From: Paracyclopina nana
Lineage: Eukaryota > Arthropoda > Copepoda > Cyclopoida > Cyclopettidae
DNA: 64,000 nucleotides
Reading direction: 5' to 3'
Assembly: GCA_019096065.1 (NCBI GenBank)
Contig: JAGUCH010000006.1
Location: 3,244,001-3,308,000 of the forward strand
Below, piece by piece: positions 35,229 through 56,300 of this stretch. Both the position numbers and the translations under genes were made by a program. The notes under the pieces are model-generated. The model worked only from the letters and a program-made list of their open reading frames with translations, was not told the DNA's origin and made no database searches. Numbering within the stretch: the stretch's first letter is position 1; each line of letters begins with the position of its first letter.

Positions 35229-35921
35229 GGGCGCCATCATTTTGTCCGACACATTTCGTCAAGTTGTAAAATGTCCGACACATTTGGTATTGTTGTAAAA
35301 TGCCCAACACATTTTTGGCGACGGGTAAATTTTTTGCCCGACACATTTGGTATAGATGCAAAATGACCGACACATTTTGGCGACTGGTGCGTTTTTTGCC
35401 CGACACATTTGGTATAGATGCAAAATGACCGAAAAAAGTTGGAAATGGCCATGTGAAAATTCCAATAAGTTTAGACTAGCTGTAATTTGCCTGACAATAT
35501 TTTTTAGCTTTCTTAAGAATTTCCATTATCAATTTTCTAATAATATAAAGTCCTGTTTCCCAAAATTTTGCTATCTCTCATCAGTGTTTTTGATTACTTC
35601 AAGAAAGTTTTAGAAATGCAATTCTAATACCAAAGTAAGTCACATTTTCACCCTTGTATTAAATGATTTTACTATTGAAGCTCATAGGTGTAAGATGCAT
35701 AGAACATTTTATAACTGTGTCATGTCGGACAATTTACATCTGGGTTGTGTCGGACATTTTGCAGCTTGACAAATCCTGTCGGACATTTAACATTCTATTT
35801 GTCGGACATTCTACAACTATGACAAATCTGTCGGGCAAAAAACGCAGTAGATGTCGGACATTTTGCAACTAGACGTGTCGGTCATTTTACAACTTGATTT
35901 TCGGACAAAAAAAGTTCCCCC
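35229..35921. mobile_element. Foldback element with tandem-repeat arms and 8-bp target-site duplication
   Basis: The direct repeat CTAGAAAT flanks the element (35221-35228 and 35922-35929). The inner ends begin GGGCGCC on the left and, reverse-complemented, GGGGGAAC on the right. The left arm is built of 29-bp and then 61-bp imperfect tandem units carrying (G)CCGACACATTTGGTAT; the right arm carries the reverse complement (TGTCGGACATTTTGCA). The centre (about 35450-35720) is unrelated AT-rich sequence. It has no transposase, so it is non-autonomous. An 8-bp duplication is typical of hAT-class insertion, but the tandem-repeat arms are typical of foldback elements. Confidence 0.75.
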
Positions 35922-38388
35922 CTAGAAATGTCACGCTACATATTTGAGCAAAAAAATAAGTCTTGAGTTTTTTTTCTGTTTTTCAAACAGTTCTGGTAGT
36001 TCTAGTGCATAACGTATATCGTTCCATGTAGCGAGGCTGCAGCTTGACTTGCAATGTGTAATTGTGGCACTCCATTGTGCAGCTATTCAAAATGGCCGAT
36101 TACCTTCCACCTCGTTGGGTTGACCAACTAACTCTCAATGAAGTCCCGCGCACTTCATAACTATCCAATTGCCGTATCAGTGACTCTTCGCTCGATGTTA
36201 TAGCAGATGCTCCAACCGCCAGAGGATAGGCGTCCAAATGTTGCGGAAAAAATTCCACTTTTTCTCTCACCTAAACTCTAATAAAATAATTACGATTTTA
36301 GTACATTTTGGGCCAGTCTCTCAATTGGAAACGCAAGGTACCTATAAATATTGCTCATTCATTATTGAAAACTCAGAGCCTGGAAAAAATCTGGAAAAAA
36401 GAGTATCGAATGAAAGTACTAGAAAGCCGGCGTAATTTTTAAAAAAGTACTTTTTAAAATATGGCTTCTAGGGCATTCACTCGCTTTCTTCGCACCCAAG
36501 GCAAAATTAAGGCTCAGTCGCTTCGCTCGGTTTTTTCGAAACGCAACTTGGGTTAGATATAATGGCTGATTTTTCGTCGCCACCTCGAGCGCATTGAGCT
36601 TGTGGTGACTCCATTAAAAGTTGACACCCGAATAGACGACGCGAAAAATGGAAAGAATAAATGGCGCGCAATGTACCTTGAAGCCACTTAACAATTGAAC
36701 AACTGTCACCGCCAAACAATACGATCACAAAAGCTTGAACAATATTTTCGCGGACAGAGAATTTTTCACCAACCAACATTTTTGCCTTGGCAGAGCTAGC
36801 AACATTTTGGGTGTAAAAAAGAGCGGCTGCTTTCCAATTGAGCTTTTTTATCCTCCCGCTCCTCCTCAGAGTCCCAAGGGAGAATCTGGACGAGCTGATA
36901 CGAAAACTTTGAGTGCACTTTTCAATCTCGCCTTATAATCCTACCCTATTACAGAGACAAAATCCGAATTCTCCCGACAAATACCTTGTCCGTCAAGCTG
37001 TATCAGATCATTTTTTCATGAATTCTCCCCAATCAAAAACCTTTATCAATGATGCCCACAAAAATGTCATTACTCTGGTTCTATTTCTGTAACAAATTGA
37101 CCCCATTCATGGAGAATGCAGCAAAACGAGCTATGAAGAAAATTACCGATGTGTGTGCCTATTTTCAACCTAAGCAATGTGCATTTTCCTCCAATTTGGA
37201 TAGGAAAGTGTGCACCACGTGGGTGGCTCGTTTGACCCTTATTACCAGGATACGAGCGCGCGAGCGTTGTTTATTTTTCCCAAATAGCTTCCCGTTGCAT
37301 CGTGATGGATGACCACACTTACTATATGTAGCAGCATATTAACAGTAATGGAATGAAATCATTATCTAGCTACTCGTATGCAGTATGTGTATACGCGCAT
37401 CTATGCGAGATTTGTGACAGCAGATGATCATTTTGGAAAAATCATGCGATGACCCAAATTGATGATAGATGATATGTGAGTCTCACGCGAAAACCGACAA
37501 CTCGTTGAGTTGATGCTGTGAAAATCATCGATACAGCTAACCAAGCTCAGATCTTCGTTGGAGCATGATGCGAGTTGGCACCAATGATACCACTGGTACC
37601 TACGAGGACTACCATACGCGTAGATGATAAAAAAGAAAGCCGGCTGTTATTCAAAAGTGACATGTTCAAGCTGTCAGATCAGCCTTGTAATTCGGAATCA
37701 TTTACGCTTCAATTACGAATTTACACCATGTGAAATGCATCTAGCTCTCAGCTTGTGCTCAGCTTAAAGTTACTCGATTTTGGTACTTTATAGGTTGTTG
37801 ATTTTCATTCGGTGCTTTGCAAGATACGAAAAGGAAAATAGCGGGAATTACTTGCGTGAAATGCGTCATTGGTATATCCAATCTCAATTCTAAGCTGAAT
37901 GGCATAATAGGATGGCTTACACCTATTATCAGCTTTACGAAACAAGAGTATCATTTATCGCAAAGACGAGAGATTTCCTTTCAGAAAGTTTCATCGTCGT
38001 AGCAAATTGATTTCATTGCCTTTTTTTATCGCAAGCTTTCATTAATCGCTAGTAAAACTTACAAAAGCCTGAAAAAATTGGAGAAAAATTGCTTTTTATT
38101 ATTGTGTATACCTAGTGATATTTTCCAAAAGAATACGCCTAAGATTAGGCATTTTCAATTTTCATCCGTTTTTAAGCTGTATTGTTTCGCAATAAGCTAG
38201 ATAAATATTTTCATATGCCTCCTTTGAAGTGTCCACGCTAAAAATGGCTTTACTAGAATACTCTTACTTGTGACGTTGGTGCCATAACAAAAACCAAATA
38301 TGAAATCGAGCCAAAAAACGCAACAGCCTTCGGTTCGGCCAAAATCTTTTGCCATTGTTACATTGTTAGTATTTTTTTCATAGCTTTA

Positions 38389-38749
38389 GGGCGGTCTCAT
38401 ATTCGTCAATTGGGCAAGGTAGGTGGACTCACCTTCCCACCTACCTAGGGTAGGTGAGGGTAGGCAGGTGGGTAGGTGGGTAACCTAGTAGCTTAGTGAA
38501 CCAGTTAGTATGCAGGCAAGTTAAGTCAATTTGACTCAGAAATCACGAGAGGACATTTTGTGTAGAAGCAGCTTTTTGTTATGCTTAAAAAATTGACTTA
38601 AATTGCCTGCACTAACTGGTTCACTAAGCTACCAGGTTACCCACCTACCCACCTGCCTACCCTCACCTGCCTACCCTCACCTACCTACCCTAGGTAGGTG
38701 GGAAGGTGAGTCCACCTACCTTGCCCAATTGACGAATATGAGACCGCCC
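38389..38749. mobile_element. Hairpin element, GGGCGKTCTCATAT tip, copy 1
   Basis: 361 bp, nearly perfect inverted repeat with arms of about 145-160 bp and a central loop of about 55 bp (38534-38588). The outer tips read GGGCGGTCTCATATTCG and its reverse complement. The arms contain reiterated GGTAGGTGGG/CCCACCTACC. It has no coding capacity. It shares its tips with the elements at 40131 and 40439. A clear target duplication is not visible. Confidence 0.75.
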
Positions 38750-39712
38750 TTTTTTAAAGATATGTTTTTTTTCTGGATTTAGATGAACTTGGGCATTGGA
38801 AAAGAAGCGTCAGCTCGCGAGCAATAATTCCTTGTTGAAAGGTGATGCGTTGACAATGAGCAAAAAGTCATTTATAACAGCAGTTCAGCTTTTGTGGTTC
38901 CACACCGTCGAGTTTGGGCACAGTGGGTGGTAGTATGTGGCAACAAAACTCGTGGTTCTGGGCTCATTTAAAAGTGGATAAAATCTCCTTAAAAGATCTA
39001 CCGTTAATGGCATTGAAAATGGCCAAATATATATGTTAGTGCTTTCAAATCTTGATTTTTGCTTGAATTCCAAATGCTTCCGAATTTCCTATTTTTGGTC
39101 GCTTTGCCCTATTTGAAGCTGGCTTTTTGGGAGAGTTTTGGAGTGCAAAAATAAGAAGGTTATTTTTTTCATCCTTTGGAACAGTCAATGCATTTGAACG
39201 TGTGGGTTTTTCAAGGAGTCAAATGTTCAGCAAAAGTGCCCTTTTGCAGCCGGCTGTGATTGGGCGGCTTTCCATGAAGTAGGAGGAGTCAATCTGCAAT
39301 GCTCTGGTTCTGGTCGCGAAAGCGGGACAAAAGTCCCATGGTGCCGTTTTCCATGTCGACACCTCGCTTTCACTGATACGATTTGACTTTTCAGTGTTTG
39401 CACCAAATCCACCCCGAAAACATATTGAACGTTTCAAGCATGCAATAGCAGCACTAATTTGCTTGAATTGAACGCTATCTGGGAACTGATGATGCCTCAC
39501 ACAGGTATGCCTCCAAATTAGAGTGACATTCAATAATTTTCAAATTAACCTTTGAAGCCACACAAATGTGCCAAAAAGAGAAAAGAAGAAAATTCTCTTT
39601 GCATTTCGTAGCCTGCTCAAGTTGCTAATTAAAACTGATAGTATACTATTAGTAGTTATACATGCTAAATGGCTCAAGTTTAACTCCAACTCAAAAATTA
39701 CTCCTGATAAAG

Positions 39713-42700
39713 GTCAAGCTGGAATTAATCAATTGGGCGGAGTGTTTGTCAATGGCAGGCCTTTGCCAGATTATGTAAGACGCAGAATTGTGGAGCTGGC
39801 CATGATGGGTGTGCGGCCTTGTGACATTTCCAGGCAACTCCTGGTGTCCCATGGGTGTGTGTCCAAGATCCTGACCCGATTCTACGAAACTGGATCAGTC
39901 AAGCCTGGATCCATTGGAGGAACAAAACCAAAGGTAATCTTCCGACTTTGGATTAGCTGGGAGCAGAGTAATTACGCTTGCTTTATTTCTATTTTTCTGA
40001 GCTTCTGACAAAAATAAATCTAAATCGGCTCGCTGCTGATCTCCTTCAAAAGCCGCATTATCAAGTTGAAAGGCTTTATTTCCCGTTCCAACACGCTTTT
40101 TAGAGCAAAGAGCTCAATGCTCTTTTTATAGGGCGTTCTCATATCGCATTTGGGTTAAACCAAAACTTATACTGCTTAGACCAAACTGACTTTTGTCCGG
40201 ACAAAAGTCAGCATTCTTGTAGCGTTTAGTTTAACCAGAATCAGCGTGGTTTAACTAAAATCAGTTTTGGTTTGACCAAACTGCGATATGAGAACGCCCT
40301 ATGCCATTAAGTTTTTATCCAACTTTTAAATTGTCCGAAATTGTCAGTTTTAGGGCTAGCTATAGGATGAGTTATGGTAAGTTGTGGTGAAATAACCAGC
40401 AAAATCTAGGTATTTGCTGAAAAGCGCGTCAGACTTTAGGGCGTTCTCATATTGGACTTTAGCTTACCTGATTTTGGTTAACCAAAAACCTGTTTTCGGT
40501 AGGTAGCCACTACATAGCGCTTGACTAAAAACCAGTTTTTGGTTTACCAAAATCAGGTTTTGGTAAGCTAAAGTCCAATATGAGAACGCCCAAAATCCTA
40601 ATTCTTTTCGGCCACCTCAAGAGCAAAGACTTGAAACAAATATACTAATATTGAGCCTAGTCATTCCTCCTTAATCCAATTTTGTTTGGTTAAGCTAGGT
40701 TCAAAATTGATGCCACAGCATTAGCGCATTGTGGAAGGATTTTGTTCGTCAAGAGAGAACAAGAAAGTAAGCCTAGCTCTTTCAGCAATTATTATGCATT
40801 TATGTATCAAGCTCATTATTATTATTGCTGGTAAAATATGAGCTGTTTGGTGATAAGAGCAGGAAAATGTTGGATTAGAGTCCGTGAAAGGTGACTAAAA
40901 TGATGATTTTCATGACGGCTCTATTTTTCTGAAATCGAAGCAATGAAGCTTCCTTCTAAGCAAAGCCAATATAGCTTCATAAATATCACCAATTTTCTCA
41001 AGAAGTTCAGCTTCAATAGGAACCCGAAGTCAAGCTGACTGCACTAGATGGCACTGAGTTCAGACGGCTTGACGTCATCAGCGCGCGAGCGTAGTTGACA
41101 CGTTCATCAAATGAGCTACTAGACGTGAACTGTACAAAATAGTCAAAAAGAGCCAGCTTCCTACTATAAAAAAGCCACTTTAATTTAGTGTGTCAATCTG
41201 GAAACACTTTTAATTAGTGCTCTAGCTTGCCCATAAGCCAGCCCAAAGGCCAGCCTGGAATTTTAGGAAAAGATGGAATTTCAGGAAATATACCACTCTT
41301 AATATAGTGAGATGTAAATATAATTGGTCTATTTGAAACTTAGGCTCTACTTAAGCTTGTGAAAATTACACCTTGCGAAAAATAATCAAGAAAATAAGGC
41401 ATTTTGCTAATTCAGACGGCGCAGCGTGAGCAGCGATCAGCCGTCTGAAATCTAATGAGCTCGCCGGTAGGATAAATATGGTACCGTTTTACGGTTCCCT
41501 ATAGCAACGCGCTTTTTCTGAGCGAAATGTCTCGCAGAAACTAGCTAAAATCTCGAAATCAGCGACTAACGCGTAATGCTGCAGAATCAAGATAACATAT
41601 AAAGTTTTTATTCAATAACTTCGCCGTTTGTGAGTATTTAAAAATTAAAAGAACACGTCTCTAATAATTTGGTGCATTAAGTCTAGCCAAAAGCAAGCTT
41701 ATTCAAGCTTTAGATATATTTCTTTGTTAACTTTTGGGAGATTGGCTTTCTAAAAGTCAAGCAATAAGAAAGCAGAAAAATCACTTGCACATTAAGTGTA
41801 CATCGTTTATGTTTACAATTCTGGTGTTTTGGGCGGTTTTTTTACGAATTTGGCGAAAAAGCTCGCGAAGTCAAAACAACTCGTGATCACGCTCAACAGC
41901 AAGAAACAAAACCAAAACACAACCAGAATTATCATTTGCGTCTTGAAAATAAGCGAGGAGGGGGGAATATCTAGGTTAATCCATTTGTACTGTGACCAAG
42001 CTAATTGTTGTCGTTTATAGCAAGTGGCGACTCCTTCGGTGGTGAAGCGAATTCTGCGGCTCAAATCCGACAACCCCGGCTTATTTGCCTGGGAAATCCG
42101 AGATCAGTTGCTAGCTCAAAGAGTTTGCGATCCTAATTCCATTCCGTCAGTGTCATCAATTAATCGCATTTTACGCAATGCTGGGCATCCTCCAGATCCC
42201 GAATTGCCACCAGTGGCAGCATCAGCAGCCACTTCATCCGCTTCTGCGTCAACAGCCACAACTTCATTGGCGTCAACTTCGGGAGCCTCACCAAAAATCA
42301 AGACCAATGGCAGCAATAATTCCCAAAGGCCATTACACCTAGAAATTGGTAAGCATATGTCCTTTTTTCAGCATCATTCTACAAATATTCATTTTTGTCA
42401 TTTTTCATCCTGAATGATGGCGCGCTCGACATTGTTCAATATCTGATTTTCCCATGACCACAATTAAAGTTTGCGTTTAAAATGTCTCTATGGGCTAACG
42501 ATGCAGTAAAAGCCTAGCTGATGATGGTTTTCATGGCATGTGACAATCAAGATCATCAGATCTTGATGTCATGTCTGTGCCAGAACTGAAATCCATTCTG
42601 GAAAGCCAGCCTAATTTCCGCCAAATGCACCTGCGTTCACTTTGTTCTACCACAACTACTACGCGTTTACCTTTCTAAACCAAATGGGGGGAATCTCTCG

Positions 42701-53395: not shown

Positions 53396-56300
53396 TCAGT
53401 AATCATCTTCTTCAATTTGTCCAGGAACATCACATACCATATCCTCTCGTTTGCAGGAAGGTGTACGAGCCAGAGAGCTTTTCCTGTAGATTTGCCTGAT
53501 TTGATCTAGCTCCTTCTTTTGTGCCTACGATTTTTAACATGCAGTCAAAAATATCCCTTAAATCAAAATATAGTGGTGAGCTTACTTCAAGCAATTTGTA
53601 ATGGTGCTCTCTCTTGTGAATGATGGACCTCATGGGAAAAGGATTCAGCTCATGAAAAGCAATCTGAAATTTGATACCAATTTAAAGTACAAAAGCAAAA
53701 ATATCTCAGAGAAAGCTGATTGTTTACCTGAGTCAAAGTAACTGTATCCGTCAAATATTCCACACCATCCCTGAGAGTGTTGTAGATTGACATGTAATCA
53801 CACTGTTTCAGCAAAGCTCCTTCCATGTACTTGAATATGGCGATAGCGTATCTAAAGAGGACCTGTGCACGCAGAGAAATTCATTAAAAAGTTCAAGACT
53901 GCCATTTGATTAGCCACTTGCCTTGCTGCCTTCAAACAGAAATGCATCCCAGATATGTAAGTAGGTCTTCACAGGCATTGTATCAACGAAAACACAGAGA
54001 AACCAATTTAAGGAGAACAGAGCTGGATCAACGCCATGCTTGTTGAAGTGTTGGTTCAATTTGGGCAGTTTTTCAGCCAGCAGCTCCTTGAGTACTTCCT
54101 AAAAAGCAAATTAATTTCCAGCAGAGTTGAAGATACACTATCTAAGTCTAAATGCAAAGATGGTAGTAGTATTTGTACTGTTTACCTGATCAACTTGTGC
54201 TCCAATGAGTTGTTTGTCTCTGCTGTAATACTCTGACGGCATCAAAGACTCAATTATGTAGACAAGACACCAAAAAGCATCCTCCTCTGCCATGAACAAA
54301 AGTGCTATGGCAACCAACCGGTTGAAGCCCTAAATGCACGAAAGCAATCAGTTAAAACATGCCTTTTACTTCTTGCCATATATAGGATAAGCACCTGGCA
54401 ATATTCCACATCAGGATTGTGTACACTGTAAGCCAGCAAAACTCGTCTTAATTTGGGAATACCGTCAGCATTCAAACTGTCGTAGTGTTTGTTGCTCGGC
54501 AAAGTCCTCAGCAGATCCAATTCAATCTGGGCAGAAAAAAATTATTTTCTATACTTTGAGCAGGAATAATGTGTAGGTGTATTTTTCACGCAACCTTGAC
54601 CAAAACTGTAAGATCTCTCTTTTCTGAGTGCGCGTATTACACAACCGCAATACATAAGCATTGAAATGTATTTATATGAGAACTACCTGCTTAGCTGCTG
54701 GAGTCAGTTTTCTGCTTGGATTGTAATTAGCCAGCAACTTTTTATAGTAGTCAGCCTCGAATTTGTCGTTTTGTACTCTCATCAACTTGTGGTCCACAAT
54801 GGCTTTCCAGACTGCCCCACGTTGCAGAATGGGAATGCCGAGCCTCAAAAGATTCTTCAAGTCTGTTGTCATAGTAAATGGAGTTTTGGTGTTCAAAGAA
54901 GCAATGGCTTCGTCCCATCGTTTCTCACGATTCTCGTCCTAGAAAAGAATGCTTAGTTGGAGGAAGCTTTCAATGGTCATGAACTTACATGATACCCTCC
55001 ATCATCGAGTATCTCGTGGTGATCTTCAGCTTGACGTCGCAGCTTTTCTGCCTTGTCTTCAATGCTACTGCCAGAGGTGTCGATTCTGAAGCCAAAGCGA
55101 TCAAAAGATGCTGACGTTTGCGCCAAATTAGGTCGTTCTGCAGCCTCCACAATATCCTGAGAAAAAAAGGGTTCAAATTAAAATTTGTTCATTACACACA
55201 AAAGCTTTTTCCCAAGGCAAAAAAAGCCATTCGATGAACTAGAGATTGACTTGCTGCATCCTTTCCATTACAATAGTTCATGAATGAAAAAGAAACCATT
55301 CATGCAAGGAAACATGAAGGCACAATCAAGAAACACACCCTTAAAAGCCTGCTTGTGGTTTGAATTAGCTAGGATAAAAACAGACAAAATGCTGCAGTTT
55401 TGAAACATCATCTCTCTTGGGGAAAAGAGAGGATATTATGGGCTATTTTAGGAGCTGGAGATGGTGTGTCCTCAGAATACATTTGATCATCATGTGTATT
55501 CACTGGATACAGCGCTATATTTATCGGACGAATGGGCATGTAATTGCTTATATGCCTCTTTTGTATCCGACTCGTCACTGTCAGAGCTCTTAAATTTAGC
55601 TCTCCAAGCTAAATTGTCTTCATTTTTTTGGACCTCGTAAACACCTTTAAGTAATTCTTGGATGTAAGCTATTATTATCCTGCTTAGGAATAGCTTTTTC
55701 TTCCCATTCATTCAATGCAGAAAAACAATGACGTCTGCACTTTCAGTAGCTTATAATAGCCTTCAATTTGATGCTTCTTCCTCTGGCAGGAGAAGCAAAA
55801 AATATTCACATTTTGAGTGTTTACCTTGAGCAATTGGCTGACCATTTCTTGCCTGGATGCAGACACTCCAACTTGCGGGTTGTGCAGTTCATTGAGAAGC
55901 AGCAAGTATTTCGATTGAATTTGGTAAAACTTGGCCTCCCAATCCGACGATTCTCTGTAAAAAAGTGATAAAGTTGAGAACAAAGCAAATTAGATCTAGA
56001 AAGCCGAACGTACATAAACAGCTTTTGTTCTCTGTCGATAGCTTGTTGCCGAAGGTGATTCAACTCCAGAACTTCCTTATTAAGGAACTTATTCTGCATT
56101 TCGTAGGCAACGACCATATCCTGGAGTTTTTCTATATCTTGAGCTGAGATGGAGTCCGAGTCAGTGGAGGAGCCTTGCATTTTTGATGTCAGGTGCTCAG
56201 AGGCTCGTAATTCTGGGCCATACTGAATAGCAGAAAAAAAGAATCCATTTCAATTATTCAAGAGCTGGACTGTGCAGCATTAGTCTCTCATAGTATACAT

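Follow-up and report, generated by a model that had tools for sequence, protein, structure and literature searches.

How do transposable elements with identical tips come to carry different, self-complementary arms? The question is posed by three hairpins that lie close together in a Poxn-like gene region of the copepod Paracyclopina nana, within a window of 64,000 nucleotides (GenBank assembly GCA_019096065.1, contig JAGUCH010000006.1, positions 3,244,001 to 3,308,000 of the forward strand). An initial annotation, made from the letters of the window, held the arms to be private to each element, set the hairpins apart from ordinary families of miniature inverted-repeat transposable elements (MITEs), and proposed that the arms had been captured, synthesized by hairpin copying, or continually homogenized. 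A genome-wide test (92 Mb, 10 contigs) answers this claim: the hairpins are very probably nonautonomous PIF/Harbinger MITEs of three subfamilies (A, B, and C, represented by elements 1, 2, and 3, respectively), probably mobilized in trans and, most clearly for B, apparently descended from founders in which one end was duplicated in inverted orientation. Although the subfamilies are new, Harbinger MITEs are a known kind of element; what is possibly new is the one-end origin of the arms, together with a potential transposition advantage of same-end palindromes.

Each arm type forms a multicopy subfamily

The 14-nt tip GGGCGKTCTCATAT occurs exactly 471 times in the genome (231 + 240), and a reversed-pattern control not once. 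The first 100 of these positions, all on C1, resolve into 59 elements; both tips are exact in 41, which measure either 148 to 169 or 366 to 379 bp, and odd sizes such as 330, 382, and 539 bp are also present. DNA searches returned 48 candidates for A, 155 for B, and 115 for C, with 40 scored in each case. Full-length A copies account for 37 of the 40, the window copy included, and the 36 others are 82 to 96% identical to it; B and C each have 39 other copies among those scored, 94 to 97% and 93 to 95% identical to their window copies, respectively. Since the arms thus belong to standard multicopy subfamilies, with 36 to 39 close copies per element among the 40 scored and a 3-bp duplication common to all three, the argument from private arms against ordinary MITEs fails, and does so by the very outcome that the initial annotation had named as refuting it.

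For alignment, we used the 98 copies closest to those of the window: 30 A copies (of the 40 scored), 28 B copies, and 40 C copies. The B set comprises 28 of 30 loci fetched, L056 and L059 being excluded because the match did not span the element from tip to tip; 16 of the 30 A copies and 11 of the 28 B copies were flipped into a common orientation before the consensus was taken. Mean divergence from consensus, window copies included, is 0.6% for A, 1.7% for B, and 1.35% for C, values biased low by the choice of best-scoring copies. Short, noncoding, near-identical copies of fixed length are a hallmark of MITEs, and all three subfamilies show it, many of their copies being young.

Other hairpins were seen at the loci sampled. 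A 382-bp element with GGGCGTT tips, a TGT/TGT duplication, and B-like arms (L028:624-1003) is a longer relative of subfamily B. A further hairpin family has the tip AGGCCGTTCTCATAT or one near it (L055:1750-1978, L063:1280-1493, and L004:2553-2755); its L055 copy is 231 bp long with a TGT/TGT duplication, and the L063 and L004 copies are without duplication. Nesting occurs in both directions: a 539-bp A element (L134, C6:4132349-4132885, duplication ATA/ATA) contains a hairpin with the AGCTTGTTCTC tip, and an A element sits inside another element with tips GGGCGTTCCCATAT and GGGCGATCCCATAT in a 787-bp nest (L036:1405-2189, duplication CAT/CAT).

Ends and target-site duplications

The element unit is RGGGCG...CGCCCY, and its 15-bp end RGGGCGKTCTCATAT is common to all three subfamilies. 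An exact 3-bp direct duplication flanks 66 of the 98 sampled copies (A, 21/30; B, 22/28; C, 23/40), compared with means of 2.1 to 2.8 in a swapped-flank control; duplications of 2 or 4 bp are not clearly in excess in the sampled copies of any subfamily, and none of 5 to 9 bp is found at the correct boundary in the 30 A or the 28 B copies. The boundary itself is set by these duplications: taking GGGCG as the first bases of the element yields no 3-bp duplication at all and was rejected, and moving one base outward yields the A and B counts just given. The initial annotation had placed the tips exactly where we find them (38389/38749, 40131/40299, and 40439/40591), but its element limits lacked this one further base on each side. 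Terminal inverted repeats and a target-site duplication of constant length again place the elements among MITEs.

Two features of the duplications speak against the Harbinger assignment: a perfect 3-bp duplication is missing in 32 of the 98 sampled copies, window elements 2 and 3 among them, and just 12 of the 66 duplications are TTA or TAA. This triplet is the one described for plant Harbingers, and we do not treat it as defining the superfamily. The duplications consist only of A and T in 43 of 66 cases, with a looser palindromic site preference near A-Y-WWW-R-T.

An empty site is available for comparison. The C copies L079 and L083 break the same spot of a longer repeat that is uninterrupted in the window (35230 to 35910); relative to this site, the 3-bp TAA appears duplicated, the left copy differing at one base, and L083 has three further changed bases. 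Because both copies occupy the identical position, they probably represent one insertion that was later copied along with its host repeat. The host repeat in the window is itself of foldback type but unrelated to the three hairpins; it is built from inverted TGTCCGACACATTT-like units and has 94 candidates in the genome, 40 of them scored; two copies, at C9:2207225-2208036 and C3:8531419-8532233, hold a C MITE at an identical spot.

Full-length Harbinger elements carry the same tips

A genome search for the DDE_Tnp_4 domain (PF13359) gave 25 matches. Ten tips differ from those of A, B, and C in having A or T as their 16th base, and two of them stand 725 bp upstream of a DDE match each; these 2 of the 10 were examined and belong to elements of 3,755 and 4,342 bp with an exact tip at both ends (C2_2443 and C9; Table 1). 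Of the remaining matches, 18 were viewed upstream, four second fragments and one weak match being left out; an exact tip lies 300 to 1100 bp upstream in 3 of the 18, and the far end is exact in 3/3. These three further elements (C6_882, C2_10373, and C1_16619) have the duplications ATA, TGA, and TAA, so a 3-bp duplication accompanies all five larger elements with both tips. Of another 7 odd tips, 5 are ends of these five parents.

Table 1. Coordinates of the window elements, the adjoining paired-box coding parts (window positions), and two full-length Harbinger elements (genome positions)
Feature	Position	Strand	Details
Element 1, subfamily A MITE	38388..38750	.	363 bp; 3-bp duplication TTT at 38385-38387 and 38751-38753
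Element 2, subfamily B MITE	40130..40300	.	171 bp; flanks TAT / ATG, without perfect 3-bp duplication
Element 3, subfamily C MITE	40438..40592	.	155 bp; flanks TTT / AAA, without 3-bp duplication
Poxn-like exon, first paired-box part	~39712..39936	+	Pfam PAX positions 1-76; exon ends approximate
Next stretch, rest of paired box	42021..42176	+	PAX positions 74-125
C2_2443, full-length element	C2:2443243-2446997		3,755 bp; exact tip at both ends; duplication TAT
C9, full-length element	C9:4531675-4536016		4,342 bp; exact tip at both ends; duplication TCT

The five elements have open frames of 300 to 399 amino acids without stops, and their transposases fall into three groups, 96% and 98% identical within two pairs and 83 to 85% identical between groups. 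The C2_2443 transposase matches DDE_Tnp_4 with an E value of 2.2e-30; a homology search retrieved 103 relatives, the top match being 37% identical and the named ones mostly "putative nuclease HARBI1," and no solved structure is related to it by sequence at E<=0.001. On this sequence evidence, the five larger tip-sharing elements are PIF/Harbinger elements with a HARBI1-like DDE transposase. A single 92-Mb genome thus holds three Harbinger groups, with transposases about 84% identical between groups, that have an identical 15-bp tip at both ends.

Harbinger elements follow a two-gene plan in which a Myb-like protein is thought to bind the ends, as outlined in PMC2836001. Against a close fit to this plan, C2_2443, the one element examined for a Myb-like second gene, shows a weak Myb/SANT-like match: an opposite-strand frame matches Myb_DNA-bind_4 at E=1.5e-4 with 22.5 bits, below the 27-bit Pfam cut-off. 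In three of the five parents the middle was read around the transposase only. Inspection by eye of the five right ends showed the tip core repeated (CGTTCTCA or GTTCTCA) about 60 to 100 bp inward, which may be a second binding site. Variant tips (AGCTTGTTCTCATAAAC and AGCCCGATTTCATAT) occur at other Harbinger-type loci, as left ends beside DDE_Tnp_4 matches (L128-L130 and L122).

Membership in another superfamily, either Zator or a foldback/Mutator type with long repetitive ends, was also weighed. Zator had been considered on account of the GGG tip and 3-bp duplications and was dropped once the Harbinger parents turned up. Its 3-bp duplications would fit, and Zator is described as a relative of ISAzo13 in PMC10045372; PF07592 (DDE_Tnp_ISAZ013) has no match in the genome, a result that is no proof of absence, as there are none in 14 control genomes either. 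The A arm is internally repetitive, as foldback ends are, but the 9-bp duplications reported for the Mutator-type Tm1 (PMC3169594) have no counterpart among the 5- to 9-bp lengths scored in A and B. With five Harbinger-type elements bearing the exact ends, we consider either class scarcely credible.

We posit instead that a Harbinger transposase, probably acting with a Myb-like second protein, recognizes the common ends of the miniature elements, excises them, and inserts them in trans, as the ends and duplication length shared with the five larger elements suggest. Recognition confined to the ends would leave the inner sequence free to diverge between subfamilies, which would be why only the end is common to them all.

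Origin of the arms

Arms were compared by local alignment beyond the 15-bp tip and scored against dinucleotide shuffles. The consensus arms of B and C are related (z = 6.9; 0/500 shuffles), whereas those of A show no relationship to either (B, z = 0.0; C, z = 1.1); the view that all three arms are mutually unrelated therefore holds for A against the other two but breaks down between elements 2 and 3. The subfamily arms were then compared with all ten parental ends. In the C6_882/C2_10373 lineage, the right end matches both arms of B (z = 8.5 to 11.4) and the left end matches neither (z = -0.5 to 0.2); beyond the tip, the two ends of each of these parents resemble each other at most weakly (z = 2.2 and 0.1). 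Because both B arms match one parental end, the simplest account is an inverted duplication of that end, and the B palindrome probably arose in this way in its founder. The best match of C is the same right end (z = 4.8 and 5.5), and a like duplication of one end is the likely source of its palindrome. For A, the best match is to the left end of C2_2443/C9 (z = 7 and 8).

Several comparisons weigh against a one-end origin. The B left arm weakly matches both C1_16619 ends (z = 3.0 and 3.8), with no such likeness in the B right arm (z = 1.4 and 0.1). The score of C against its best end is only z = 4.8 to 5.5, and two left ends also score, that of C1_16619 at z = 3.8 and that of C2_2443 at z = 3.3. 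A matches the right end of C2_2443/C9 as well (z = 4.6 and 5.1). Because the likeness of A to the left end rests partly on repeated GGTAGG-type motifs and a close A parent was not found among the five parents read, a one-end inverted duplication is suggestive only for this subfamily.

The established alternative, stated for Medicago PIF/Harbinger elements in PMC2213677, is plain internal deletion of a full element through abortive gap repair, in which each arm comes from its own end and similar ends yield a hairpin. The ends of C2_2443/C9 are indeed alike over 44 bp at 82%, tip included, and a weak hairpin could form from them, but the A and C arms are unbroken for 117 and 58 bp, beyond the end likeness in any of the five parents, and both B arms match only the right end of C6_882/C2_10373. 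Internal deletion is improbable on these grounds, and inverted duplication of one end remains the preferred origin.

The arms are accordingly neither private nor in need of a foreign source: the comparison called for in the initial annotation finds B and C related to each other and to a Harbinger right end, and capture becomes superfluous when the arms resemble Harbinger terminal regions of the same genome, B clearly and C and A less so. Hairpin copying survives in an altered form, as an event in the founder that would give both B arms the sequence of one right parental end, and not as synthesis of a new arm in each element. In the founder, one Harbinger end would be duplicated in inverted orientation, for instance, when synthesis in the repair of a gap folds back or switches template; fold-back inversions formed through single-stranded hairpins, described for yeast in PMC7467729, offer a possible route. 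The founder would then amplify, and its later copies would mutate mostly in single arms. Tracing hairpin MITE arms to one parental end, as is clear for B, makes the origin of palindromic MITEs testable.

A bolder extension, which we regard as rather unlikely though worth stating, is that each hairpin MITE burst in this genome begins with a fresh one-end palindrome made of two right or two left ends. A same-end element might then move better or escape a control acting on the natural left-right pair, and arm copying would be episodic, confined to founding, which would make B old and A and C recent. The idea of a same-end advantage is reasonable because the activity of piggyBat, a member of another superfamily, is reported in PMC11707139 to be limited by a transposase site lying within its left end; a limited literature search found no direct test of a transposition advantage for same-end palindromes.

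Are the arms homogenized continually?

If one arm were continually copied onto the other in each element, by hairpin repair or gene conversion, substitutions should appear in both arms at once. Among pairs complementary in the consensus (98 copies; 9,769 pair-cells), we counted 140 one-arm changes versus 3 symmetric two-arm changes, 2 of them distinct (in A, L033; in C, L087 and L091). Moreover, 20 of the 83 arm pairs of the B consensus stay noncomplementary. Three signs point the other way: the outer consensus arms are unbroken for 117 positions in A and 58 in C; two distinct symmetric changes exceed a chance expectation of about 0.2 in all, which counts against a strictly founder-level account; and variants creating complementarity at a consensus mismatch are present in 9 A copies (of 30) and 15 B copies (of 28), which shared ancestral variants explain as well. 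Continual homogenization, as the initial annotation had offered it, is thus highly improbable in the sampled copies. Ordinary mutation predominates; as the ratio of one-arm to two-arm changes and the mismatched B pairs indicate, arm copying, if any, took place mainly in founders and not in each copy.

Relation to known systems

A close parallel is the Tourist-like MITE mPing, mobilized by the PIF/Harbinger elements Ping and Pong, in which short noncoding elements likewise share their ends and 3-bp duplications with two-gene Harbinger elements. Ping and Pong proteins both move mPing although they are only 62% identical in ORF1 and 77% in the transposase (PMC2836001); by comparison, the transposases of the five parents here are 83 to 98% identical. 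The duplication of mPing is usually TAA, whereas the duplications here are A/T-rich and varied, and here the arms form long hairpins, at least those of B seemingly from one parental end. MITE-like families of Anopheles gambiae and Caenorhabditis elegans also comprise short elements, some of them palindromic (PMC3212995); the Anopheles clusters are described there as having no identity to known elements, whereas the genome studied here holds full-length elements with identical ends.

Two systems from other superfamilies offer partial likenesses. Drosophila Bari-related MITEs keep the ends of their parent and have interiors not easily comparable with it, which PMC4877112 attributes to a rearrangement more complex than abortive gap repair; unlike the Harbinger elements here, they belong to Tc1/mariner, with inverted repeats of 46 to 50 bp in the two D. 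melanogaster families. The foldback-type Tm1 resembles the present hairpins in its composite inverted ends, which vary in length (PMC3169594), but combines 9-bp duplications with a Mutator-type transposase in place of 3 bp and DDE_Tnp_4. Both tip sequences are without an exact text match in the open-licence PubMed Central literature, repeat databases lying outside this search.

The window elements and their surroundings

All three window elements are strongly self-complementary, with RNA fold z scores against dinucleotide shuffles of -33.8, -13.0, and -15.4 for elements 1, 2, and 3, respectively. The arms of element 1 are 91 to 97% complementary in pieces and those of element 3 are 97% and 90% complementary in pieces, which bears out their description as near-perfect inverted repeats; the description is generous for element 2, at 80% over 69 nt. 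With up to 2 mismatches, the window contains 7 tip matches (6 exact; the seventh, at 54674, with 2 mismatches), compared with a shuffle mean of 0.33.

The gene was tested for its PAX domain, the name Poxn being that of the initial annotation, which had located all three elements on its 5' side. This is correct for element 1, which lies upstream of the first paired-box part, but elements 2 and 3 lie in the intron that splits the paired box (Table 1). A triple within 2.2 kb arises in 5 of 2000 simulations when 235 elements are placed uniformly, and the clustering described in the initial annotation is unlikely under such placement, but elements elsewhere on the listed part of C1 cluster too, with 6 gaps of <5 kb versus 1.65 expected. 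As these neighbors lie closer than uniform placement predicts, a regional preference common to the elements may suffice to explain the triple in the window.

The very stable predicted hairpins, three of them within 2.2 kb and two intronic, could also be taken as loci of the Poxn-like gene that selection maintains for regulation or as sources of small RNA. We find this most unlikely: identical sequence types are scattered across the genome, and the window copies differ from their consensus sequences by ordinary insertions, deletions, and substitutions. Element 1 lacks 18 bp of the left arm relative to the 381-bp A consensus, and element 3 lacks 6 bp in one arm of the 160-bp C copy consensus, has gained one base elsewhere, and has A as its right outermost base where T is expected.

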